From the NCBI RefSeq assembly GCF_018128925.1, contig NZ_CP067007.1, positions 62,001 through 126,000 of the forward strand: 64,000 bases of DNA. Reading direction: 5' to 3'. Below are positions 36,206 to 48,935 of the stretch, in pieces; position 1 is the stretch's first letter; every line of letters starts with the position of its first letter. This DNA comes from Nitrosopumilus sp. K4. GTDB taxonomy: Archaea; Thermoproteota; Nitrososphaeria; Nitrososphaerales; Nitrosopumilaceae. The notes below the pieces were generated by a model. That model ran no database searches and was not told where the DNA came from. It saw only the letters and a program-made list of their open reading frames with translations. The position numbers and the translations under genes are program-made.

Positions 36206-39200
36206 ATGAACAACGAATTAGGACGTAAAATAACTAGTCTTACATTAATGACAATTATGTTAGCAGGCGGTATGACAATTGCTGCACCAGGCTTTATGCC
36301 AGCAGCACATGCAGCCAACGCTAACCTATTTGTTTCCGCAGAAAACTCACAGTTTGATAACTACATGTCAGGACCTCAAGTAATTGAGGTCGTTGTAATT
36401 GACTCAGACATTAATGACACCGATGAGGCAAAAGGTGAGCCAGACGTTACAGTAAACGGTAAGATCCTGAGAATGGTTCAAGCAGTAGACGGTAACTGGT
36501 ATGGCTACTTTGCCGACAGAAACATGGCTGAAATTGCAGATTCAACAGTTTCCGCAGCAGGTGAAGGTTTAGACTTTGGTACATTTTGTTCCGCAGGTAC
36601 GGCAGATAGCGTTATTGGTTTCTCACTAAGTGAGACCTCTGGCGTTGCAATACCATCACATATCGGATCAGCAGGTATCAACGGTACAAACCCAGCAACA
36701 GTACTTACAGATGCAGCAGCAGACTGTAGTAGTGTTACTTACTCACTTAACGGAACAAACAATGTTGTAAGAGAAGCAAAAGATCCAAATGCAGGTACAG
36801 CAGCAAATGTGGATAGAGGTCAAATCGGACTTGCACCAGGTAATGGTGTTTGGCCATTTGTACAACTCTATAACCTAAACCCAACTGGTAACGTTGTCGT
36901 ACAGTACAACAAAGGTGGTGGTGTTCAAACAACAACACTTACTTTTGATACTGTTGATAACTTTGCATCAGTAAGTTTAGACAGAGCTGTCTATCCACAA
37001 GGCGCAGAAGTACATGCAACTGTCACTGATTTGTGGTTGAACGTTGACCCAACTGACGAAGACTCTTGGACATTTGGTACAGTAGGTACACTAACTACAA
37101 ACTACCAAGTATTCGATGAGAACGGACTCGCAGTAGGTAACACTACCACAAATACAAGTACAGCTTCTACTGCATTAACAGCAACATTAGGTGACTTGAT
37201 GTGTGAGGATAATTGTATAATGTCATTCAATCCAGATGTTCAAGGTAAAGGATACGTCGCTACCTTACAGGATAACGGCGATACCGTACTTGAATTGAAC
37301 AATGTTAATAATGCACAAAACCCACTTAGCTGGGGTGCAGGCTCTAACTTGGTATTGAATGGTACTGTACCAATTACAATTACAGAACAGGGTCCAAACA
37401 GCGGTGTATTTGGTACATATGATGAATCAGATACATCTGCACTTGTAATCACTGATGATGCAAAGAGGGGAACCTCAGCATCTATCACATACAATGAGGA
37501 CTCTTATACTATTCTTGTAGGCCACAGCTTTGGTTCTGTTGACATCCAACCAACAGATAATGAATGGAACTCTGGTGAAGAGATTCCAGTAGTTGTCGTT
37601 GATGGTGATGCAAACAGAAACAGTAGAGCAGATGAAGACCTTGACTTGAATGATCCAAATGTAAAATTGATCCCAGCACTTCAAACTGGTGATCCATTCT
37701 CACTTGGTGAAGCAGGTACAGAGTCTAGCACTGTAGCTACTGCTGTCTACTTTGACAATGCTACTGCTGCAATTACTAATGCAACAACTGTTACATCTCC
37801 AGGTGTAGCAGCTGCAGCCAATGCAACATTGACTGTACAAAAATTCAGCCAGAGAGCAATGTTAAACTCAAGTAGTACAACCTCAGTTGATGGAATCGCA
37901 TTCGACTTAGGAACAGATGCAGACGATTTGCAAGACACCGTACTTAATAGAACCGCACTCAATGGATTTAGCTTCCTTAACTTAGATGTTAGAAGCCTAA
38001 GCTCCACTGGACCATATGATGTATTCTTACTTAACAATACAGTAGGAACTGCAATCATCGGTGCTAACGGTACATTGACACCAACAACATTTGCATACCA
38101 AATTGCTGATGGTGTTTCACAACAGTCACTCACTCAGTTAACGAACAACACCATTGATTATATCCAAACTTTGAATCAAACCGATCAAATTGGACTTGCA
38201 ATTATTGCAACAACTGGTGCTGCTCCAAACGCTGAGGATGCAATCGCAGCAGACTTCTTCTCCTTTGGCTTCCTAAATGATGGATTGGAAAAAGATGAAA
38301 GAATCGCTAACCAATTAATCAGAATTGAAGTCGAGGAAACTGGTGATAACACAAGTACCTTCGAAGGTAGCTTGGAATACACCATGATTAATCAGCTAAA
38401 CATACTTGATGCAGATCTATACGCTGGCCTTAGAACAATTGCCGATGATCCAACTTTCATCGTAATTGAAGACTTGGATGATGAAGAATCACCAAGAGTC
38501 AACTATCTTGACTTGGGCGCAGATGGTGTATCTACACAAGTAGCTGACCAACAAGAAGCACCAGCTCACTCTGGTATTGTCTCCTTCGATCTCGATACTT
38601 ACAAGACTGCTGACACAGTTACAATTACACTAGAAGACGCAGATCTTAACGTAGACTCTGATCTCATTGATATCTATACAACAGTTGACACTGGAGTTTT
38701 AGTTGACGTAGTCGGCGAAGCTTCTGCCAGCTATTTACTCTCCAACGGTGAAAACCTTGGTAGATTACTAGATGTCACATTCGATGATCAACTTTGGACC
38801 GGTACTCACGCCGGCTGTACAGTACCATCTGGTATTGATGACGGTCTTGCAAGTACTGGATTCTCACTTATTGAAACAGCACCAGAATCTGGTGTATTCA
38901 TAGGTGACTTCCAAATTCCTTCCCAGTGGTGTAGATCAGGTGCAACAGCACCAGAATCTGCAACCGGTCTCGACATTGAAGTTAACTATGTTGACTTTAG
39001 AGACGCATCTGGTGAAACCATCGAAGTAGGAGATTCAGCAGGAATCCGCGCTAACACAGGTTCAGTAAGCCTTGACAGAACTGTCTATCCAGTACCATTT
39101 GGTGTACCAGCTAGATATGATGCCAATGCTACAACTGTTCCAACCTCAGGTACAACTGAGCGTTCATTATTCCCAATCCATCAATCCGGTATGGGTGGAA

Positions 39201-41281
39201 CTGGTATTTCCGGTAACACTGCTGGTTTGGATGCAGGTGAATTCTTGAACAAGGGCGGACTTACTATACACGTTAGAGTTAACGACCCAGACTTTGATGT
39301 ATCCGCAAGTGGTGAAGATGAAATTGCTGAAAACACAGCTGATGGAGTCGGACCTGTTAAAATCTCTGTTATCAGAGGTTCTTCAACAGTCGTACTCGGT
39401 TATGCTGGTGGTCCAGCAAAGGTAAATGGTGTCATTGACGTCGATGGCGACAATGCAACTCCAGGTACCAGTATCAGACAATTTGGCCCAATGGTCGAAA
39501 TTGCACCAGATGCAGGAATATTCGAAGCTGACGTACTCATCAGATACACTGACGGTCCAGCATCTTCAACATGTCCAGATACGGACAACTATGTTGCACT
39601 TGATGGTACCACAGGTACTGGTGTTTTGAACAGATTTGACGAAACCGCATCAACTGGTGACTTCTGTATCCTACAAGGAGATATTCTCCAAGTAGAATAC
39701 ACTGATCCAGCCGATGCATCAGGTGATGTCAATACTGTTACAGACTCTGCTACATTTGATCTTAGAAACGGTGTATTACAATCTGACAAATCCGTATACA
39801 TTATCGGATCTGATATGATCTTGACCCTCATTGAGCCAGACCTTGATCTGGACAATGACCAGGCTGAGACTTATGACTTGGACTTGATTGAATGGGACTC
39901 TGATGCCGCAACCGTTACCATGGGTGACGCTGATGGCGAAGGAGCAGCATTTGACCCAGAACCACTTAACTTCAGAGAAACAGGTGAGAGTACTGGTATC
40001 TTCCAGATTGTCATCGAAATCCCTGAAGAATTAGGCGGTGACAAGTTAGAAAGAGGAGAAGAAATTATCCTCGAGTATACTGACTGGGGTCCATCTGGAT
40101 CTGACTATGTAGGTGACGAAGATGAAGATGTCAACTTGACAATCTACACTTCTAACTTCGGAGCAACTGTTGAGCTTGACCAAAAAGTTTACACATGGAC
40201 TGATAAAGTATACATTACTATCGTTGCACCAGACCACAACTTTGATAGTGACTTAGTTGATGAAATCGGTAACACTGATCTTGATCCAATCAAGGTCTCA
40301 ACCAGAGGACAGAAACTAAACAACTACAAATTAGTTGAAACTGGTACTGACACAGGCATCTTTACTGGTGAGGTTATCCTTACTGGATTCACACATGATG
40401 CTGATGGCGATACCACAACTGGTACAAATGGTAATGATGTAGTATCCCGTGACCCATCTGGTAGCGGTCCAACTGATGGACTCTTACCAGCAGATGATGA
40501 TGACGGTATTACTGTATCCTTTGAATTCTCAGAGGATGAAACAGTAGTCGGCTCAGCACTCATCAGATGGAACATCGGTGAAGTTCAGTGGCTTGAAGCA
40601 AGCTATCCAGCTAGCGGAACAGGTGTTGTAAGAGTAATTGACCCAGACATGAACTTAAATCCAGAATCAGTCGACAACTTCAATGTCGATGTGTGGTCTG
40701 ACTCCGATTCCGGAGGTATTGACCTTACTGTAACTGAGACTAATGAGGCAACTGGAATCTTCGAAGGTACTGTGTTCTTCACAACTACTGACGAATCTTC
40801 CGGTCACAGACTCAGAGTCGCAGAAGGTGACACTGTCACTGCAGAATATGAGGACAATACACTACCTGATCCATACACAACTGCAGATGAACTTGATATT
40901 ACTGCCACTTCACTAATCGGTACTGTTGTACCTCCTCTCGAGAGAGCACCAGCTGCAAACTTGAGAACTGTTGATGCCTTCGGTAACAGCTTAGACTCTG
41001 TTAGCGTAGACCAACAGGTACAAATCAGCGCCGACTTAGCAAATGGTCAGGATAGAGAGCAAGCATTTGCATACTTGGTACAGATTCAGGATGGAAACGG
41101 TGTAACAGTTTCACTAGCATGGATTACAGGTTCACTATCTCCTGGTCAATCATTCAGCCCAGCATTATCATGGATTCCAACTGCCCCAGGCACATACACT
41201 GCAACAGCATTTGTATGGGAATCAGTAGATAATCCAACGGCTCTATCACCACCAGTTTCAACAACTGTAACTGTCAATTAA
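36206..41281 (+). CDS. Major S-layer protein
   Basis: This 1691-residue secreted protein is of the type known as the main S-layer protein of Nitrosopumilus. The signal peptide ends near residue 36 (PAAHA|ANANL). The mature part is built from repeated Ig-like domains whose starts share a pattern: SLDRAVYPQGAEVHATVTD, FDLDTYKTADTVTITLEDAD, SLDRTVYPVPFG, LQSDKSVYIIGSDMILTLIE and VELDQKVYTWTDKVYITIVA, each followed by acidic DxDxN-like turns that may bind calcium. ETGESTGIFQ-type strands recur. It is rich in Asp, Thr and Asn-x-Thr sites, so it is probably N-glycosylated. There is no membrane helix; anchoring may use the next gene product. Strong T-rich terminator follows. Confidence 0.88.
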   Translation: MNNELGRKITSLTLMTIMLAGGMTIAAPGFMPAAHAANANLFVSAENSQFDNYMSGPQVIEVVVIDSDINDTDEAKGEPDVTVNGKILRMVQAVDGNWYGYFADRNMAEIADSTVSAAGEGLDFGTFCSAGTADSVIGFSLSETSGVAIPSHIGSAGINGTNPATVLTDAAADCSSVTYSLNGTNNVVREAKDPNAGTAANVDRGQIGLAPGNGVWPFVQLYNLNPTGNVVVQYNKGGGVQTTTLTFDTVDNFASVSLDRAVYPQGAEVHATVTDLWLNVDPTDEDSWTFGTVGTLTTNYQVFDENGLAVGNTTTNTSTASTALTATLGDLMCEDNCIMSFNPDVQGKGYVATLQDNGDTVLELNNVNNAQNPLSWGAGSNLVLNGTVPITITEQGPNSGVFGTYDESDTSALVITDDAKRGTSASITYNEDSYTILVGHSFGSVDIQPTDNEWNSGEEIPVVVVDGDANRNSRADEDLDLNDPNVKLIPALQTGDPFSLGEAGTESSTVATAVYFDNATAAITNATTVTSPGVAAAANATLTVQKFSQRAMLNSSSTTSVDGIAFDLGTDADDLQDTVLNRTALNGFSFLNLDVRSLSSTGPYDVFLLNNTVGTAIIGANGTLTPTTFAYQIADGVSQQSLTQLTNNTIDYIQTLNQTDQIGLAIIATTGAAPNAEDAIAADFFSFGFLNDGLEKDERIANQLIRIEVEETGDNTSTFEGSLEYTMINQLNILDADLYAGLRTIADDPTFIVIEDLDDEESPRVNYLDLGADGVSTQVADQQEAPAHSGIVSFDLDTYKTADTVTITLEDADLNVDSDLIDIYTTVDTGVLVDVVGEASASYLLSNGENLGRLLDVTFDDQLWTGTHAGCTVPSGIDDGLASTGFSLIETAPESGVFIGDFQIPSQWCRSGATAPESATGLDIEVNYVDFRDASGETIEVGDSAGIRANTGSVSLDRTVYPVPFGVPARYDANATTVPTSGTTERSLFPIHQSGMGGTGISGNTAGLDAGEFLNKGGLTIHVRVNDPDFDVSASGEDEIAENTADGVGPVKISVIRGSSTVVLGYAGGPAKVNGVIDVDGDNATPGTSIRQFGPMVEIAPDAGIFEADVLIRYTDGPASSTCPDTDNYVALDGTTGTGVLNRFDETASTGDFCILQGDILQVEYTDPADASGDVNTVTDSATFDLRNGVLQSDKSVYIIGSDMILTLIEPDLDLDNDQAETYDLDLIEWDSDAATVTMGDADGEGAAFDPEPLNFRETGESTGIFQIVIEIPEELGGDKLERGEEIILEYTDWGPSGSDYVGDEDEDVNLTIYTSNFGATVELDQKVYTWTDKVYITIVAPDHNFDSDLVDEIGNTDLDPIKVSTRGQKLNNYKLVETGTDTGIFTGEVILTGFTHDADGDTTTGTNGNDVVSRDPSGSGPTDGLLPADDDDGITVSFEFSEDETVVGSALIRWNIGEVQWLEASYPASGTGVVRVIDPDMNLNPESVDNFNVDVWSDSDSGGIDLTVTETNEATGIFEGTVFFTTTDESSGHRLRVAEGDTVTAEYEDNTLPDPYTTADELDITATSLIGTVVPPLERAPAANLRTVDAFGNSLDSVSVDQQVQISADLANGQDREQAFAYLVQIQDGNGVTVSLAWITGSLSPGQSFSPALSWIPTAPGTYTATAFVWESVDNPTALSPPVSTTVTVN

Positions 41282-41304
41282 GACTAGACAAATTCACACT
41301 ATCC

Positions 41305-41318
41305 TTTTTTCTTTTTTT
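41305..41318 (+). terminator. T-rich terminator after the S-layer gene
   Basis: Two runs, TTTTTT and TTTTTTT, separated by a C, begin 24 bp after the stop codon. Archaeal polymerase terminates at such tracts, so read-through to the next gene may be reduced. Confidence 0.6.
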
Positions 41319-41393
41319 GAATCCTGACTTAACGTAAGTTGTAGACAATTTTTCCAGAAGCAATATCTAGGAGAAGTTCTGTTGTAAAATAAA

Positions 41394-42362
41394 TTGAAAA
41401 AAAAATTATTACTTTCGTTTTTGTTATTTGTTTTAGTATTGCAAATTCCAAACTCTTTTTCTGAAACTTTGGAATTGTTTTCAAACAGCAAAGTCTATTC
41501 TGAGAACCAACCCTTGTTTGTTTATGGCAAAGGCCTTCCAAATGAAAACATCATTATCAGATTATTTGCACCAGATGAAACAATTGCAAAATTTGATCAA
41601 ATTACTGCAGATGAGGATGGTACCTTTGAGCATGTGGTACTTACATGGCCAAAATCATCAACCACATTCCCATTTGGAACATACACTGTTGAAATTATCA
41701 GTACTGAACAAGGACTGTCACAAAAACTAGATGTAAAATTTACATCAACCACAGAACTAGTTGATGTGCCAGTTGAGCGTCACGTAAACACACTTGTCTT
41801 TGCACCAGAAACGGCTGCAATTAATCAACCAATCAGAGTTTTTGTCCAAACAACCAGTGACGGTCTCTTGATTGGCGATGATCCACGTAAACTTTTAGAA
41901 ACCACACATGTTCACTTGCCATCAGGAAAAGTTCAGACATTAACAAATGCATTCTCAACACTACACCAAGGATTGTACTTTACTGATTACACTCCTACTG
42001 AAGAAGGAACATATGTCTTTCATGTTGTTGCATTCAGTCAGGGAACAATCTCTCATGGCTCTGTAGCTACCACTGTAATGACTCAAGACATTCGTGGAAT
42101 CTCAAACCAAATACTTGAATTAAACTCAATCTTAGATGAAACATCACAAGAACTTGAAGTGCTAAAATCTGAAATTGAAGGATTTGGAACGACTCTGGAA
42201 AGTGCTAGCACAAATATTGAAAAAAGTACAACATCAATTTCCTCATCTGTAACAAACATTGAAGAGGCATCATCACAGCTAAACTCTCTATTCTTTCCCA
42301 TTGTCGCATCTATTGGAATAATTGTTGCACTACAAATAGCAATTCTTGCTAGAAGAAGATAG
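41394..42362 (+). CDS. Membrane-anchored coiled-coil protein, candidate S-layer anchor
   Basis: This 322-residue protein starts at TTG 41394. It has a signal peptide (LLLSFLLFVLVLQIPNSFS), two beta-sandwich-like regions (about 25-120 and 130-230; GTYTVEIIS, GTYVFHVVAFSQ), a coiled coil at about 235-300 (QILELNSILDETSQELEVLK), and a C-terminal transmembrane helix (about 300-319) ending in ARRR. The order signal, Ig-like, coiled coil, membrane helix is the same as in the SlaB stalk of Sulfolobales S-layers, but no sequence similarity is claimed. Its location directly after the S-layer gene and before a membrane-anchored subtilase makes an anchor role plausible. Confidence 0.72.
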   Translation: MKKKLLLSFLLFVLVLQIPNSFSETLELFSNSKVYSENQPLFVYGKGLPNENIIIRLFAPDETIAKFDQITADEDGTFEHVVLTWPKSSTTFPFGTYTVEIISTEQGLSQKLDVKFTSTTELVDVPVERHVNTLVFAPETAAINQPIRVFVQTTSDGLLIGDDPRKLLETTHVHLPSGKVQTLTNAFSTLHQGLYFTDYTPTEEGTYVFHVVAFSQGTISHGSVATTVMTQDIRGISNQILELNSILDETSQELEVLKSEIEGFGTTLESASTNIEKSTTSISSSVTNIEEASSQLNSLFFPIVASIGIIVALQIAILARRR

Positions 42363-42377
42363 TTATAATAAACACAA

Positions 42378-45300
42378 ATGACAAAAATTGTCATAATGCC
42401 CAAGGTGGCTATCTTTTTTTGTATTATTCTTCTGTCTTCAGTATCTGCAAATTCATATGGGTACTATGGTGATCTACATTTTGATACTGTAGAAAAAAAA
42501 TCTGATATTTTTAACTCTGGAATTTTACATGTTGATTCAGATTTCTATCAAGAAAATAATTTCAAAAGATACATTGTTTTTGGAGCAAATTATGATGATG
42601 TAGACTATCTCAAACAAAACTCACTTTATGGAATAAATTCTGAAAATGGATTCTTTTATGTTATGGTGTTAGAAAAAAACATTGCATCTGATCTTATCTT
42701 ACAAGGTGTAAATGTAATTGAGGACTTTCAATTAGACTTTCATACTTCAAATGAAATCTCTGATGCCTCAAGAATTGGCTTGATTACTGGTTCAGATGTT
42801 GCAGAATCAAAATACAATGCTACGGGAAAAGGAGTAAAAATTGCTATAGTGGATACGGGAGTCGACTTTTCAAACCCTGACATTCAACACTCTTTGGCAC
42901 GTGATGAAAAAAATCACCCCATAATGCTTGATCCTGATGGCCAGGGAATAATTCTAACCAATGCAACATTTTTTGCGTTCATTGATGATGATGAAATAAT
43001 TCGCAATTACTCAAAACCAATTCCTGAAAACTATACTTCTTCAGTATATGTTTCTAAAAAAGGCGTTTTTCTTGATTTGACAAATGATGGAAAAGGGACA
43101 AACATTCCAATCTACAATTCATTTTTCCCACAAGTTGGAAATTCTGTAGTTTTTAATGGGACATTGGCAAATGATATGAAAATTGGCCAAAACAATCGAG
43201 ACTATATCAAATCAAAAAGTGGAAACTATCATTTGGGTGTAATTTATCAAGGTGCACTTCAAGGATCTCTTGCAAGGCTTCAGGTGGTTCCTGTTCTCTT
43301 AGTTGATTCAACAATTGCAGGAAAGTACGATACAATAATCCCTGATCTTAGCACTTCCTGGGAGGATTATACTCGATTTGATCTAAAATCTGGTGAAAAA
43401 CCAGATTATGATTTTGATTTTACTGATGAAAAACCAATTGTACTGGGAAGTGGAAAAGAGTTTCTTGTTTATGACTCAAATGGTGACGGAAAAGACGATT
43501 ATAGTGCAGGAACAATTGGTGCCAAAGTTTTGGATGTTTACGGTGTGATTGGTAATCACACAATCAACGTAGATGATAAACTAAAGGCAACAAATGGAAC
43601 CTTGTTACAACCAATTGATCCTAAGGGACAATATTTTGGATTGATGACTGATTTTATGGGACATGGAACATCCAGTGCAGCATCAATTACATCTAGAGGT
43701 ATTGAGACATATGATATTTACAATAACACAGAAAAATTTACTATCAAAGGAGTAGCACCTGATGCAAAAATTATCCCTGTAAAGGCATTATGGTTTGGCG
43801 ATACTGTTTATTCATGGTTGTGGGTTGCTGGATTTGAAAACAATTCTACAAACTGGGAATTTTCTGGAGTTCCCAAAGCCGATATCATATCTAATAGTTG
43901 GGGAGTGTCGAATTTTCCTTCATTTGAATCTCCCCCTGGATTAGATGTTCTGTCAATTATTCTCTCAATGCTGTCAACTCCGCATTCTCTTGATGATGAT
44001 TATCCTGGAATTACAATAATTTCTAGTGCCGGAAATTCTGGACATGGTTATGGAACTATTGGATTGCCAAATGCATCCCCATTTGGAATTTCTGTTGGAG
44101 CTACAACAAATAATGTCTATGTAGGGTATGGTCCATTCAAAGACCAGCCCAGATTTGGAAATTCTACAATTCATTATAATCATGTTGTAGATTTTTCAAG
44201 TAGGGGTCCTGGAATTATCGGAGATCCTAAACCTGATTTGATGAGCATTGGTGCACACGGCTTTGTTCCTTCTAATGTGATAAAAACTGAAAAAGATTCA
44301 AAGTCCGAGTCTTTTTCATTGTTTGGTGGAACAAGTATGGCAGCACCACTTGTTTCAGGAAGTACTGCCATTATAATGGAGGAATTACAAAAGCATTCAA
44401 AAGAATATGATCCCTTTATGATAAAAAACATCTTAATGTCTAGCGCAAATGATTTAGAAAATGATCCTTTCACCCAAGGGGCTGGACTTGCAAATATTGA
44501 AAATGCTATCAAATTTGTAAATGGCGAAAAAGGGTATTTTATTGTACATAACGATCAATCATATGAAAATATCAAAAAAGTAATGGAGCCTGCAATTCAA
44601 AATTTTAACTCTACAAAACTAGGCTTTGAAAAATTTTCACTTCCAACAAAATCAATGCCTATGACAAGCTGGTTTGCAGGACAGTTATTGCCTGGAGACT
44701 CGTCATCTACAACTTTTACTATTGAAAATCCTTCTGATTCTCCAATACAGATAACAATTAAACCTGAGCTAGTGTCATTAATCAAAAAATATTCTGTTGA
44801 CAGTACTACTGCAATCACAAAAGACTATCCTTCTGAAGGAAAACCTGATGTATATTTGCCAAACTACGTCAAACTTTCTGATGTTAAAACATCAGAGGTT
44901 ATGGCAGATCTGTTTGATGAAAAATTAATTCCTAAAGAATCCTCTTTGCTGATCTTAAATGTAAATTTCCCATTTGATAATTTTATGAATAAAACAGATG
45001 ATGTCTATGCAAATGATCTAAAAATCTCATCGTTGTATCTTTATGATTGGATAGATAACAACAACAATACCAAAATTGACAATGATGAAATTTCAATGGT
45101 TAACAGGGGAGGTTCTTGGGGAACTGTTCAGGAATTAAGAGTTTCTGATCCTGTTGAAAAATTTGATGGCATTCCAGTTGTTGGAGTTTATCCCGTACCT
45201 CAAAGATATTCCTATTGGCAAGGGGAGACAAAACAAAATTCAACTTCTATGGATTTTACTTTGTCTGCAAGTTATTATGAAAAAAATACTTGGTCTGAAA

Positions 45301-46217
45301 TATGGTTAGATAGAAAAGAAGTTACAGTGCCTGCAAATGATTCTGTAGAAATTAGTGTTAACTTAGTCCCCTCAAATAATTTAGAAACTGGCGTCTATCA
45401 GGGATTTATTACATTTGAATCAGAAAATCATAGTGTGCATGCACCTGTTTCTTATGTGATTAAAAAAGAAATTCAAAAAGATTCTCCTGTATTGATTTCT
45501 GGAAAACAAAGTGACAATATACTTTTTGGAACTGGATACACAAAAGGTGCTTTTGATATGGTTAATAGGTACATGGCAGGTGATTGGAGACAATATTATT
45601 TTGATGTTGTTGATGATTCAATAAGCTCAGCCTCAATTGAATTATCTTGGGAACATCCTGATACTAATCTTGCAGTATTTGTAATGGATCCCAAAGGAAA
45701 AATTGTTCAAACTAACATGCCCTCTGGTGTTTTTGGCCATTTTCTTGGATGGCCATCACTTGATTGGTTGGGCAATTCACTGTTTAGTCAGGGTGGTGGA
45801 TTTTTCCCAGTAAAAAATAAGGATGATACCTCTACAGTTCTCTTTGTACCAATTAATCAAACTGGAACTTATTCTCTTTTAACCCACTCTACTCTATTTG
45901 GAGGAAACAGTACGACAGAGCCAATAAACATTGCAGCAAGGTTTTCAAATATCTCATTTGAAGATTATCACATTGATGCCAAACCTCCATCTGTTCTAAT
46001 TCCTAACTTTACAAACAATGACGAAAAAATAGATACAAAAACCTCGAATAATGTATCTGATTCTAAAACAATTTCAGAAAAAACTCCAGATGCATCTGAG
46101 TTTACATCTCAAGAGATGCCAGATAACTTTGTAGTTGGTATTGCACTTGGATTGGTTATTGGAATTGCGATCGGAATTGTCATCTTTTATGTCCTCAGAC
46201 AAAAACCATCAAATTGA
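42378..46217 (+). CDS. Membrane-anchored subtilisin-like protease (S8)
   Basis: This 1279-residue protein has a signal peptide (VAIFFCIILLSSVSA) and catalytic residues Asp159 (AIVDTGVDF), His429 (FMGHGTSSAAS), Asn553 in the oxyanion site (SSAGNSGHG) and Ser653 (FGGTSMAAPL). The Asp-His gap of 270 residues is much longer than in subtilisin and holds a large inserted domain with SNGDGKDDYSAGTIG, as seen in tripeptidyl-peptidase- or pyrolysin-like enzymes. Long beta regions follow, then one C-terminal helix (VVGIALGLVIGIAIGIVIFYVL), so the protease is on the outer membrane face. It lies 15 bp after the candidate anchor gene and may process or turn over envelope proteins. Confidence 0.9.
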   Translation: MTKIVIMPKVAIFFCIILLSSVSANSYGYYGDLHFDTVEKKSDIFNSGILHVDSDFYQENNFKRYIVFGANYDDVDYLKQNSLYGINSENGFFYVMVLEKNIASDLILQGVNVIEDFQLDFHTSNEISDASRIGLITGSDVAESKYNATGKGVKIAIVDTGVDFSNPDIQHSLARDEKNHPIMLDPDGQGIILTNATFFAFIDDDEIIRNYSKPIPENYTSSVYVSKKGVFLDLTNDGKGTNIPIYNSFFPQVGNSVVFNGTLANDMKIGQNNRDYIKSKSGNYHLGVIYQGALQGSLARLQVVPVLLVDSTIAGKYDTIIPDLSTSWEDYTRFDLKSGEKPDYDFDFTDEKPIVLGSGKEFLVYDSNGDGKDDYSAGTIGAKVLDVYGVIGNHTINVDDKLKATNGTLLQPIDPKGQYFGLMTDFMGHGTSSAASITSRGIETYDIYNNTEKFTIKGVAPDAKIIPVKALWFGDTVYSWLWVAGFENNSTNWEFSGVPKADIISNSWGVSNFPSFESPPGLDVLSIILSMLSTPHSLDDDYPGITIISSAGNSGHGYGTIGLPNASPFGISVGATTNNVYVGYGPFKDQPRFGNSTIHYNHVVDFSSRGPGIIGDPKPDLMSIGAHGFVPSNVIKTEKDSKSESFSLFGGTSMAAPLVSGSTAIIMEELQKHSKEYDPFMIKNILMSSANDLENDPFTQGAGLANIENAIKFVNGEKGYFIVHNDQSYENIKKVMEPAIQNFNSTKLGFEKFSLPTKSMPMTSWFAGQLLPGDSSSTTFTIENPSDSPIQITIKPELVSLIKKYSVDSTTAITKDYPSEGKPDVYLPNYVKLSDVKTSEVMADLFDEKLIPKESSLLILNVNFPFDNFMNKTDDVYANDLKISSLYLYDWIDNNNNTKIDNDEISMVNRGGSWGTVQELRVSDPVEKFDGIPVVGVYPVPQRYSYWQGETKQNSTSMDFTLSASYYEKNTWSEIWLDRKEVTVPANDSVEISVNLVPSNNLETGVYQGFITFESENHSVHAPVSYVIKKEIQKDSPVLISGKQSDNILFGTGYTKGAFDMVNRYMAGDWRQYYFDVVDDSISSASIELSWEHPDTNLAVFVMDPKGKIVQTNMPSGVFGHFLGWPSLDWLGNSLFSQGGGFFPVKNKDDTSTVLFVPINQTGTYSLLTHSTLFGGNSTTEPINIAARFSNISFEDYHIDAKPPSVLIPNFTNNDEKIDTKTSNNVSDSKTISEKTPDASEFTSQEMPDNFVVGIALGLVIGIAIGIVIFYVLRQKPSN

Positions 46218-46259: not shown

Positions 46260-46865
46260 ATGTCAGAGCAGGGGACCCAAAAGTCTGGCGGATTATCCAG
46301 AAGGGATTTTCTTAAATTGATGGGAGCTGCAGGTACAGGCTTAGCATTTGCTCCATTTGTTCCATTTGGAAATTTTATGCCAAACCCATCTCAAGCATCA
46401 CTTGAAAAAGTACCTGTAATTTTACCTGATGGGACTCAGGCAAACGTCAAAACATTTCCACTTAACCATTCTGAAGTAATTACTTATCCAAGTACCGGTG
46501 ATCCTGCACTTGATACAGAAGCTTTTCGAAAATGGCAATTTATTCGACTACCTGAAGAATATGGTGGATCAGCACAAGATGTAACAGCTTTTAGAGCATT
46601 TAGTATGGTGTGTCTTCATCTTTGGTGTTTATGGAAATATTGGCCTGAAGAAACAAAGAAGAGAGGTGAATGTCCTTGTCATGGAAGTGTTTATGACCCA
46701 AGAACTGGGACTGCATACATTGGACCTGCATCCTTGCAAGCCGCACCTTCTAACACTTTGCCAAAATTAGATTTTGAAGCTGACTCTGATGGTTTCTTGT
46801 GGGTATTGCCACCTGTTTGGGGTGTAAATGATAATGGAGTGATTGGATATGGCCGCTTCGCTTGA
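46260..46865 (+). CDS. Rieske iron-sulfur protein
   Basis: This is the 201-residue Rieske subunit of the complex III analogue. It opens with a Tat-type signal anchor (SRRDFLKLMGAAGTG) that carries a folded [2Fe-2S] protein across the membrane. The cluster ligands are CLHLWC and CPCHGS; the usual Gly in CTHLGC is Trp here. It passes electrons from quinol, through cytochrome b, to the blue copper protein downstream. Cytochrome b starts 17 bp inside its 3' end, so the two are co-translated. ATG 46260 is supported by the TATA spacing. Confidence 0.93.
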   Translation: MSEQGTQKSGGLSRRDFLKLMGAAGTGLAFAPFVPFGNFMPNPSQASLEKVPVILPDGTQANVKTFPLNHSEVITYPSTGDPALDTEAFRKWQFIRLPEEYGGSAQDVTAFRAFSMVCLHLWCLWKYWPEETKKRGECPCHGSVYDPRTGTAYIGPASLQAAPSNTLPKLDFEADSDGFLWVLPPVWGVNDNGVIGYGRFA

Positions 46866-48426
46866 GAGAAGAACTGGCGCAGTAGCGTTCTTTTACTGGT
46901 TATGGGATGGATTAGACAGAACAATTTTTACTGCAATCAAGTTTTCATTTCCTGCACGTTTTGTAAGTCCGTTTGGATTTTTAGGAATGCTAACATTTGT
47001 TGTATTTGTCATCTTGGGAATTTCAGGAGCTCTCTTGATGTTTTACTATCAACCTATGTTGGATAGAGCTTGGGACAGTGTTCAGTTTATCAACGACGAA
47101 GTTCCATTTGGTTTTCATATTAGAAACATTCACTACCATGGTTCTAATGCTATGGTTCTTTTAGCTGTACTTCACATGTATTATCAATACTTTAGTGGAA
47201 GATACAAAATTAGAAATGAGATTCTTTGGGCAACTGGTGTTATTTTAGGGACCGTAACAATTCTTGAAGCATTTACTGGTTATGATATTATTTTTAGTGA
47301 ACGTGCAGAACTTGCAATTAGTATTGCAGCGTCGTTGACCACATCTATTCCTGTTATTGGGCCTACAATGCGTGATGCGATGTTTGGTGCGGGATTCTCA
47401 GACTTTGTTTTGAGATTTTATGCTCAGCATGTTTTCCTTTTACCATTGGTGATGCTTGGATTAATGGCAGTGCACTTTCCAAGATTCCTTGTGTTTGATG
47501 TGCCAATGGTTATGGCAATCGGCGGTGCTATTTTGATTACTGGTGGTGTTTTCCCAATTGATATGGGCTTCAAGTTTGAGCCTACTGTGCCACCTGGAAT
47601 TACAGTGCCTGAATGGTACTTGACTGGAATCTATGCATTTTTGAGAACCCAGTATGACAAGTTTGTAACAGGCGTCTTGTGGCCTGGAATATTCATAGCT
47701 GCAATTATGCTAACGCCGTTTATTGATAGATACAAGAAATTCTCTTGGAAAGATCGTCCTATAATCACTGCATTTGGAATTACTGGATTGGCCCAAGTAA
47801 TGGTTACAACCTACTGGGGATTCTATATTCCTGCAGATACTACACTGTCACTAGTAGAGCGTTTGGTAATTGATCCTGTATTCTTGTATTCAGTAATGAT
47901 ATTGATGGTTCCTCTAGGATTTGGATTCACATACATGATGATTAAACTTGCAAAAGAATCCGAAAGAAAAGCAAAATTAGCCAAGGAAAAGGGACCAAAC
48001 AAAGTCGCAACAATTAACCTATCTCAAAAATGGATTAATTGGCTGCTTGTTGCATTGTTAGCGTTCCAAGTATTCCTAAACATCGCTGCATATAATGCAG
48101 CCTTGACTGGAATGAAGAATATTTCTCTATTCTTTATTGGATTGATTCTAATTGTGTTTGCAGCATTTTTCCATATCTACAGGTATGGTATGAATGAAGC
48201 AAAAAATGCTCCACCACCACCTCCAATTCCAATACCAGATGAAAAGCCAAAAGAAATTGCACAAGAAGAGACTGTTCCAGAACCAGGAAAAATCCCAGAA
48301 GGAGAAGCATCTGGTGAAAAACCAAAAGCGATTGCTCCAGAAGTCCAGACTCCAAAAACTCAAGCAGAATTGGGTTCAGGAACAAACAGTCCTGACATTG
48401 GTGCATCAGATCTAAACAAACCATAA
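46849..48426 (+). CDS. Cytochrome b subunit with charged C-terminal tail
   Basis: This is a 525-residue quinol-oxidising membrane subunit. Eight or more transmembrane helices are seen. The heme-ligand His pairs lie in NIHYHGSNAMVLLAVLHMYYQ and AQHVFLLPLVMLGLMAVHF. PEWYLTGIYAFLRT replaces the PEWY loop region of the Qo site. After about residue 450 a Pro/Glu/Lys-rich soluble tail of some 60-70 residues follows (PPPPIPIPDEKPKE), not found in most cytochromes b. The start is ATG 46849 (MAASLERR), overlapping the Rieske gene by 17 bp; a TTG at 46843 is also in frame. Confidence 0.93.
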   Translation: MAASLERRTGAVAFFYWLWDGLDRTIFTAIKFSFPARFVSPFGFLGMLTFVVFVILGISGALLMFYYQPMLDRAWDSVQFINDEVPFGFHIRNIHYHGSNAMVLLAVLHMYYQYFSGRYKIRNEILWATGVILGTVTILEAFTGYDIIFSERAELAISIAASLTTSIPVIGPTMRDAMFGAGFSDFVLRFYAQHVFLLPLVMLGLMAVHFPRFLVFDVPMVMAIGGAILITGGVFPIDMGFKFEPTVPPGITVPEWYLTGIYAFLRTQYDKFVTGVLWPGIFIAAIMLTPFIDRYKKFSWKDRPIITAFGITGLAQVMVTTYWGFYIPADTTLSLVERLVIDPVFLYSVMILMVPLGFGFTYMMIKLAKESERKAKLAKEKGPNKVATINLSQKWINWLLVALLAFQVFLNIAAYNAALTGMKNISLFFIGLILIVFAAFFHIYRYGMNEAKNAPPPPPIPIPDEKPKEIAQEETVPEPGKIPEGEASGEKPKAIAPEVQTPKTQAELGSGTNSPDIGASDLNKP

Positions 48427-48438
48427 AACCAAACAAGC

Positions 48439-48446
48439 TTTATAAG
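48439..48446 (+). promoter_or_regulatory. TATA box of the cupredoxin gene
   Basis: TTTATAAG begins 32 bp before ATG 48471, the same sequence and distance as for the Rieske gene. The cupredoxin is thus likely to have its own leaderless promoter with matched strength. Confidence 0.7.
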
Positions 48447-48470
48447 TTCTCCAAAGACCTAGTAGAATCG

Positions 48471-48935
48471 ATGAGTGCACCGACTTCTAGTCATGCATAT
48501 GGCATTGGAGTTATTGCAATTATTGTAGCACTATCTGCAAGCGTGGTTTTTTACACTTCGTACTATCTTCCAGAGTCTCTTGCAAAACCATCAGTTGATG
48601 AACATGTTTTGCACCCTGTTGAGGAAATGATTATTGATATGATTCCTGGTTCAGCCAATCCTGAGCAACAAGACAACTTTGTTCCTAAACTGGTAAATGT
48701 TCAACTATCCATTGATAATCATGTAATATGGACAAACAGCGATGAAACTCCTCACACTGTAACCCCAGATCACAGACATGAAGACTCGTACAGCGGAGAC
48801 TTTGGTTCCCCCGGAGTTGTAAAACCTGGAGAGACATACGAATTTCTCTTTACTGAAGAACAAGAAGTTGCATATCATTGCAGTCCTCATCCCTGGATGA
48901 CTGGAACAGTTACTGTAACTAAGGCCCGATTCTAA
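48471..48935 (+). CDS. Membrane-anchored blue copper protein (plastocyanin-like)
   Basis: This 154-residue cupredoxin carries electrons on the outer membrane face. A membrane anchor (about 11-31, GVIAIIVALSASVVFYTSYY) precedes the copper domain. Ligands are His in ETPHTVTPDHRH and Cys, His and Met in YHCSPHPWM, the type 1 copper set. Ammonia-oxidising archaea use many such proteins in place of cytochrome c; here it probably takes electrons from the Rieske protein encoded just upstream. Its stop overlaps the convergent gene by 4 bp. Confidence 0.93.
   Translation: MSAPTSSHAYGIGVIAIIVALSASVVFYTSYYLPESLAKPSVDEHVLHPVEEMIIDMIPGSANPEQQDNFVPKLVNVQLSIDNHVIWTNSDETPHTVTPDHRHEDSYSGDFGSPGVVKPGETYEFLFTEEQEVAYHCSPHPWMTGTVTVTKARF

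Follow-up and report, generated by a model that had tools for sequence, protein, structure and literature searches.

The systems closest to the locus described here are the S-layers of the Sulfolobaceae, of Staphylothermus marinus and of Nitrosopumilus maritimus. In the SlaA/SlaB type of the Sulfolobaceae (PDB 8QOX; NCBIfam model NF040788), the C-terminal domains D5 and D6 of Sulfolobus acidocaldarius SlaA are flexible and face the membrane. D6 mediates dimerisation, and contacts between SlaB and these dimerisation domains have been described. In S. marinus a subtilisin, STABLE, is bound to the S-layer stalk (tetrabrachion), where, according to one proposal, it cuts the S-layer precursor.

For the ammonia-oxidising archaea (AOA), the study on the N. 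maritimus S-layer protein NmSLP (Nature 2024; PMC11153153) reports a pseudohexagonal lattice with ten Ig-like domains. The tenth is described as flexible and located in the pseudoperiplasm, on the membrane side, with diffuse density past domain 9. Most Nitrososphaerota are also reported to encode a SlaB homologue, a minor protein whose C-terminus forms a membrane helix and whose level in N. maritimus is considerably below that of NmSLP. Moreover, the presence of slaB beside slp has been scored across AOA (mBio 2024; PMC11559005), and slp, slaB and a visible S-layer have been published as absent from Nitrosocosmicus.

Organisation of the locus and comparison with known systems

The locus lies in the complete 1.646-Mb genome of Nitrosopumilus sp. 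K4, inside a window of 64,000 nucleotides (the whole stretch of DNA that was analysed). Three genes follow each other head to tail on the + strand and encode an S-layer protein (SLP), a 322-aa protein and a subtilase (Table 1). The block is real and conserved, and the first-pass annotation rightly sensed an anchor system in it. The anchor nevertheless represents a type that was known before and had been recorded for this lineage, and the two 2024 reports cited above take away the description of the system as unrecognised. What is new here is the phylum-wide pairing of the SLP and slaB genes, the C-terminal domain shared between lattice proteins and the joint absence of these parts with the subtilase.

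Table 1. Features of the S-layer block and its flank, in window positions
Feature	Position	Strand	Basis or remark
S-layer protein (SLP), 1691 aa, Ig-like repeats, 19 N-X-S/T sequons, no membrane helix	36206..41281	+	ortholog of NmSLP (PDB 8c8k)
Predicted SLP signal peptide, cut near AHA/AN, aa 36	36206..36313	+	sequence; resolved NmSLP starts at residue 35
SLPc, last Ig-like (CARDB-like) SLP domain, aa 1576-1691, proposed docking domain	40931..41278	+	homologous to Metallosphaera-type C-terminal domain
T6-C-T7 tract after the SLP stop codon, terminator-like, inside conserved intergenic element 41283-41374	41305..41318	+	
SlaB-type anchor, 322 aa, TTG start; signal peptide aa 1-23, Ig-like domains ~26-118 and ~129-230, coiled coil, membrane helix	41394..42362	+	
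Anchor coiled coil, nine heptads, aa 236-299	42099..42290	+	a/d table across 17 orthologs
Anchor C-terminal membrane helix, aa 300-319	42291..42350	+	highly conserved across the family
Secreted S8 subtilase, 1279 aa, D159/H429/N553/S653, Fn3-like region, C-terminal membrane helix	42378..46217	+	
Subtilase C-terminal membrane helix, ~aa 1252-1272	46131..46193	+	
Flank outside the system: Rieske, cytochrome b and plastocyanin-like genes	46260..48935	+	after the subtilase in most orthologous loci

With the Sulfolobaceae system the locus shares an anchor that is homologous over its full length and has the same plan of Ig-like head, coiled coil and C-terminal membrane helix, the gene order and, for Metallosphaera-type genomes, a homologous C-terminal domain on the lattice protein. 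It differs in that the anchor has two Ig-like domains instead of three and a shorter coiled coil (about 64 residues, whereas the C-terminal helix of Sulfolobaceae SlaB is reported as 132 aa), that the lattice reported for NmSLP is pseudohexagonal and not p3, that the anchor is reported to be much rarer than the SLP and that a subtilase is the neighbour. The likeness to tetrabrachion, by description, is that a subtilisin-family protease accompanies an S-layer on a coiled-coil stalk; however, STABLE is attached to the stalk itself, whereas the protease here carries a membrane helix of its own, and stalk and lattice are encoded by different genes. As to N. maritimus, the SLP of the locus is the ortholog of NmSLP, and a minor SlaB homologue with a C-terminal helix is reported there.

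The S-layer protein

The SLP aligned with NmSLP (8c8k) across residues 1-1690 with 2261 bits, that is with homology over the full length. It had been described as free of membrane segments, and no hydrophobic segment other than the signal peptide was found. The resolved NmSLP model spans residues 35 to 1616, leaving the C-terminal domain outside it.

The same genome encodes a second SLP outside the window (C1:172834-177861), with 52% identity to the SLP of the window, no adjoining slaB and no T tract directly after it. Three stretches of the window SLP also matched, at 4e-16, the S-layer model NF052345 (Kustd1514) of anammox bacteria, which is far under the cut-off of that model. In two other genomes SLP C-termini occur as equal-scoring inverted pairs (G004:C1:137794-139304 and 2028578-2030676; G040:C1:1042528-1044971), which are either invertible duplications or assembly artefacts.

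The SlaB-type anchor

The protein encoded after the SLP has the signal peptide, Ig-like domains, coiled coil and C-terminal helix that had been noticed at first. Its likeness to SlaB had been called one of architecture without sequence similarity, which proved to be wrong. The NCBIfam SlaB model NF040788 matched it with an E value of 4e-10 and 39 bits, a score far under the equivalog cut-off of 700 bits which makes the anchor a SlaB homologue and not an equivalog. When a profile of 17 family members was aligned by hhalign with Sulfolobaceae SlaB, the match extended over the whole length (98.4%, E 1e-14, 311 columns), and the Sulfolobaceae SlaB profile itself retrieved the solved SlaB chain 8qox_B at 5e-86. 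The AlphaFold2 model of the anchor (mean pLDDT 80) consists of two Ig-like domains and a single helix, 233-321. In Foldseek its top PDB match was also 8qox_B, with an E value of 1.1e-9 and a TM score of only 0.26, as is expected where flexibly joined domains differ in orientation. A stalk protein unrelated to SlaB is ruled out by these HMM, profile-profile and structural matches. As the homology is visible in the sequence, anchoring has stronger support than was assumed at first reading, and we consider a SlaB-type anchoring of this SLP to be probable.

The heptads between residues 236 and 299 are unbroken and the d position is hydrophobic in 17/17 compared orthologs. This regularity is compatible with a trimer, which is probably the form of the coiled coil. 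The anchor was also considered as one of several equivalent paralogs, and this was rejected: a search of its own genome gave nothing beyond weak similarity over part of the length (E >= 4.6e-5), to other Ig-like proteins.

We infer that the SlaB homologue published for N. maritimus is this gene. A literature search found no paper naming Nmar_1545 or Nmar_1546, and the gene pairing, the homology of the last SLP domain to Sulfolobaceae and the link to the subtilase were not found in the available part of the NmSLP study (PMC11153153).

Gene order

Gene order was counted in the 24 anchor-bearing genomes of the family that consist of a single contig. The anchor gene comes immediately after that of the SLP in 21 of them (exceptions G004, G132 and G133) and the subtilase gene follows the anchor in 22 (exceptions G004 and G032), so that the adjacency of the three genes is more than chance. 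The named loci have the same gene order. In the distant regions that were fetched, a SlaB-like gene follows an SLP gene with a recognisable last domain in 20/20 cases, a count that tests the pairing and not its frequency, as these regions were picked for their SlaB-like match. The Sulfolobaceae loci show the same order, with the lattice-protein gene followed by slaB, and this pairing of SLP and slaB is conserved across the Thermoproteota, Sulfolobaceae included. Synteny, which had been proposed as a check on the system, holds in most genera and fails in g14/g17 and in G004, where the SLP and anchor genes lie apart.

Two departures from this arrangement were seen. In a deep soil-type group (L050, L051, L055-L057; G132, G133) slaB, the subtilase and complex III genes are kept together with no adjoining SLP, which lies about 73 kb from slaB in G132 and about 100 kb from it in G133. 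In Nitrosarchaeum Baikal-G1 there is no subtilase gene between slaB and the Rieske gene (L049), the order being otherwise unchanged.

The last domain of the S-layer protein

The last domain of the SLP, SLPc, which cryo-EM did not resolve, has a mean identity of 84% to the sequence of the window, compared with 61% for SLP residues 40-1575. It belongs to the best-conserved parts of the protein, together with the neighbouring stretch from about residue 1201, which is equally conserved. A SLPc profile trained without Sulfolobaceae matched, in a HMMER search of a small set (E 4.5e-14 to 6e-5), the C-terminal end of the protein whose gene precedes slaB in the Metallosphaera-type genus and in one further genus; no SLPc was detectable in the protein before slaB in the other Sulfolobaceae loci (L066-L072). 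By hhalign a broad SLPc profile matched the Sulfolobaceae C-terminal domain with an E value of 3.9e-13. With family SLPs alone, segment 1576-1691 gave 1.3e-8 and the overlapping segment 1549-1664 gave 4.5e-7. Thirteen SLP segments outside the last domain gave E >= 0.1 against the same Sulfolobaceae domain and reversed sequences gave no match, by which a generic Ig-like effect was rejected as the source of the similarity, although the CARDB character of SLPc limits how specific this link to the Sulfolobaceae can be.

The SLPc model (pLDDT 95) matches the CARDB fold of the PF1109 structure 3idu at E 9e-5, and distant SLPc members match the Pfam model PF07705, whereas SLPc of the window itself scores 15.8 bits, below the curated cut-off of 22.7 bits. 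CARDB-like folds are common on archaeal surfaces. The best PDB matches of the model are carbohydrate-binding domains of Wzt (TM 0.7-0.78), with CARDB also present. A direct match to SlaA had been expected, but there was none among the 50 matches listed.

The fold and the likeness to Wzt make glycan binding possible for SLPc, and the main hold on the lattice could then come from the SLP, with this domain binding membrane glycans or glycolipids and the SlaB homologue being minor or accessory. A similar proposal, with the tenth domain binding other envelope molecules, was drawn from the low abundance of SlaB by the authors of the NmSLP study (PMC11153153). Nevertheless, throughout the phylum SLPc and SlaB are conserved together in adjacent genes, and they are also jointly absent, a homologous C-terminal domain is found in Sulfolobaceae pairs of two genera, and in S. 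acidocaldarius the position of SlaB as the stalk has experimental support. Self-anchoring through SLPc seems unlikely to us. Under the preferred SlaB-type anchoring, the parallel with the C-terminal domains of S. acidocaldarius SlaA singles out SLPc as the foremost candidate docking site, which is not proof, and docking of the anchor head onto SLPc is put forward as an evenly balanced proposal.

SLPc is not confined to the SLP. In the K4 genome it is present in both SLPs and in four other proteins, L118 (130 aa), L119 (393 aa), L120 (166 aa) and L121 (354 aa), which are small secreted proteins ending in SLPc and having no membrane helix beyond a signal-like N-terminus. The number of SLPc matches per genome ranged from 1 to 18. 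Of 25 SLPc-bearing proteins checked (two entries lacking the start), none had a membrane helix apart from a signal-like one at the N-terminus, and SLPc ends at most 15 residues from the C-terminus in 19. Having no membrane helix, such proteins would need some partner to remain at the cell.

The intergenic T tract and expression of the anchor

Of 31 distinct intergenic regions of the family, 30 have a run of seven or eight T within 80 nt downstream of the SLP stop codon. The T runs after slaB are shorter, mostly of 4 to 6. The surrounding intergenic element of about 95 nt is conserved across the family together with the tract and could include the slaB promoter. No second full copy of it was found by DNA search of its own genome, and a structured RNA was rejected (fold z-score +1.27, no Rfam match there). 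Typical archaeal terminators are U-rich 3' ends, which makes attenuation a plausible cause of low anchor levels. The conserved poly-T tract between SLP and slaB may, judging from the sequence, explain the low abundance reported for the anchor. That abundance had been named as a point on which an anchor role could fail; the published level, considerably below that of the SLP, weakens a stoichiometric anchor and leaves a sparse one unaffected.

The subtilase

The third protein carries a Peptidase_S8 domain (Pfam 1.6e-34) and, as first read, a C-terminal membrane helix of its own. The conserved D, H, N and S catalytic motifs are present across 26 orthologs, with the H motif one alignment column off in two, and among solved structures it comes closest to SubHal/KP-43-like proteases and tripeptidyl-peptidase 2. 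The suggestion that it matures the SLP was not borne out: resolved NmSLP begins at residue 35, the end of the signal peptide, so that removal of an N-terminal propeptide is not needed. A cut between the ninth and tenth Ig-like domains, freeing the lattice in growth or remodelling and partly accounting for the tenth NmSLP domain being missing from the resolved structure, would recall the activity proposed for STABLE. However, in the NmSLP study (PMC11153153) the diffuse density past domain 9 is read as a flexible domain that is present, and no evidence of cleavage was found. We consider such a cut very improbable.

The distribution of the subtilase was compared with that of the other components in the soil family f3, as represented in one class sample of 250 genomes. 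An anchor match was present in 11 genomes (weak in G494), and each of these has 1-14 SLPc matches; one further genome, G503, has SLPc with no anchor match, and at least 14 lack both. The subtilase ortholog was present in 10/10 tested f3 genomes with SlaB and absent from 4/4 tested without SlaB and SLPc (G341, G381, G404 and G421). By their missing genes these four appear to fit Nitrosocosmicus, and the joint absence may reflect one or few losses.

AOA proteases of the S8 family, mostly with a predicted membrane anchor, have been discussed in the literature as enzymes that break down protein outside the cell (PMC6790972). The subtilase could likewise be a nutrient-scavenging surface protease with no S-layer role, its adjacency being merely inherited gene order; in f3 the ortholog lies outside the fetched SLP/slaB regions, and several SlaB-bearing lineages are without it. 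Yet it adjoins slaB in 22 of the 24 single-contig genomes counted above, as well as in two genomes of f2, and the f3 counts also tie it to SlaB. We take scavenging as the less favoured, though quite possible, explanation. Gene order and the lack of the protease in genomes that have no SlaB support its S-layer link; the first-pass annotation had included it in the system. The maturation part of that claim has no support. Degradation of damaged or misplaced surface proteins beneath the S-layer, and not SLP maturation, has in our judgement about an even chance of being its role.

Proposed arrangement and significance

Taken as a whole, the block would constitute a two-component S-layer of the SlaA/SlaB type with a membrane-tethered surface protease. 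The SLP would form the lattice. The anchor, presumably an oligomer and probably a trimer as in Sulfolobus, would have its C-terminal helix in the membrane, its coiled coil crossing the pseudoperiplasm and its Ig-like head meeting the underside of the lattice, where the flexible, membrane-facing SLPc is the most likely partner. The poly-T tract would probably pass only part of the transcription into the anchor gene, keeping the anchor sparse. The subtilase would be held on the membrane beneath the S-layer and most likely degrade damaged or misplaced surface proteins there. It is possible, though on balance doubtful, that in ammonia-oxidising and related archaea SLPc is a general docking module by which the SLP and other secreted anchorless proteins are held via the SlaB stalk or the lattice, with the subtilase as the quality control of this zone and the whole set being lost with the S-layer.

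The gene order, the shared docking-type domain and the fact that the parts are missing together suggest a single system that is old and conserved, and the data indicate that the SlaA/SlaB arrangement, including its gene order, is common to Sulfolobales and ammonia oxidisers. The S-layers of ammonia oxidisers are thought to concentrate ammonium beneath the coat, and the tenth Ig-like domain and one protease are now concrete test objects for how this coat stands off the membrane.
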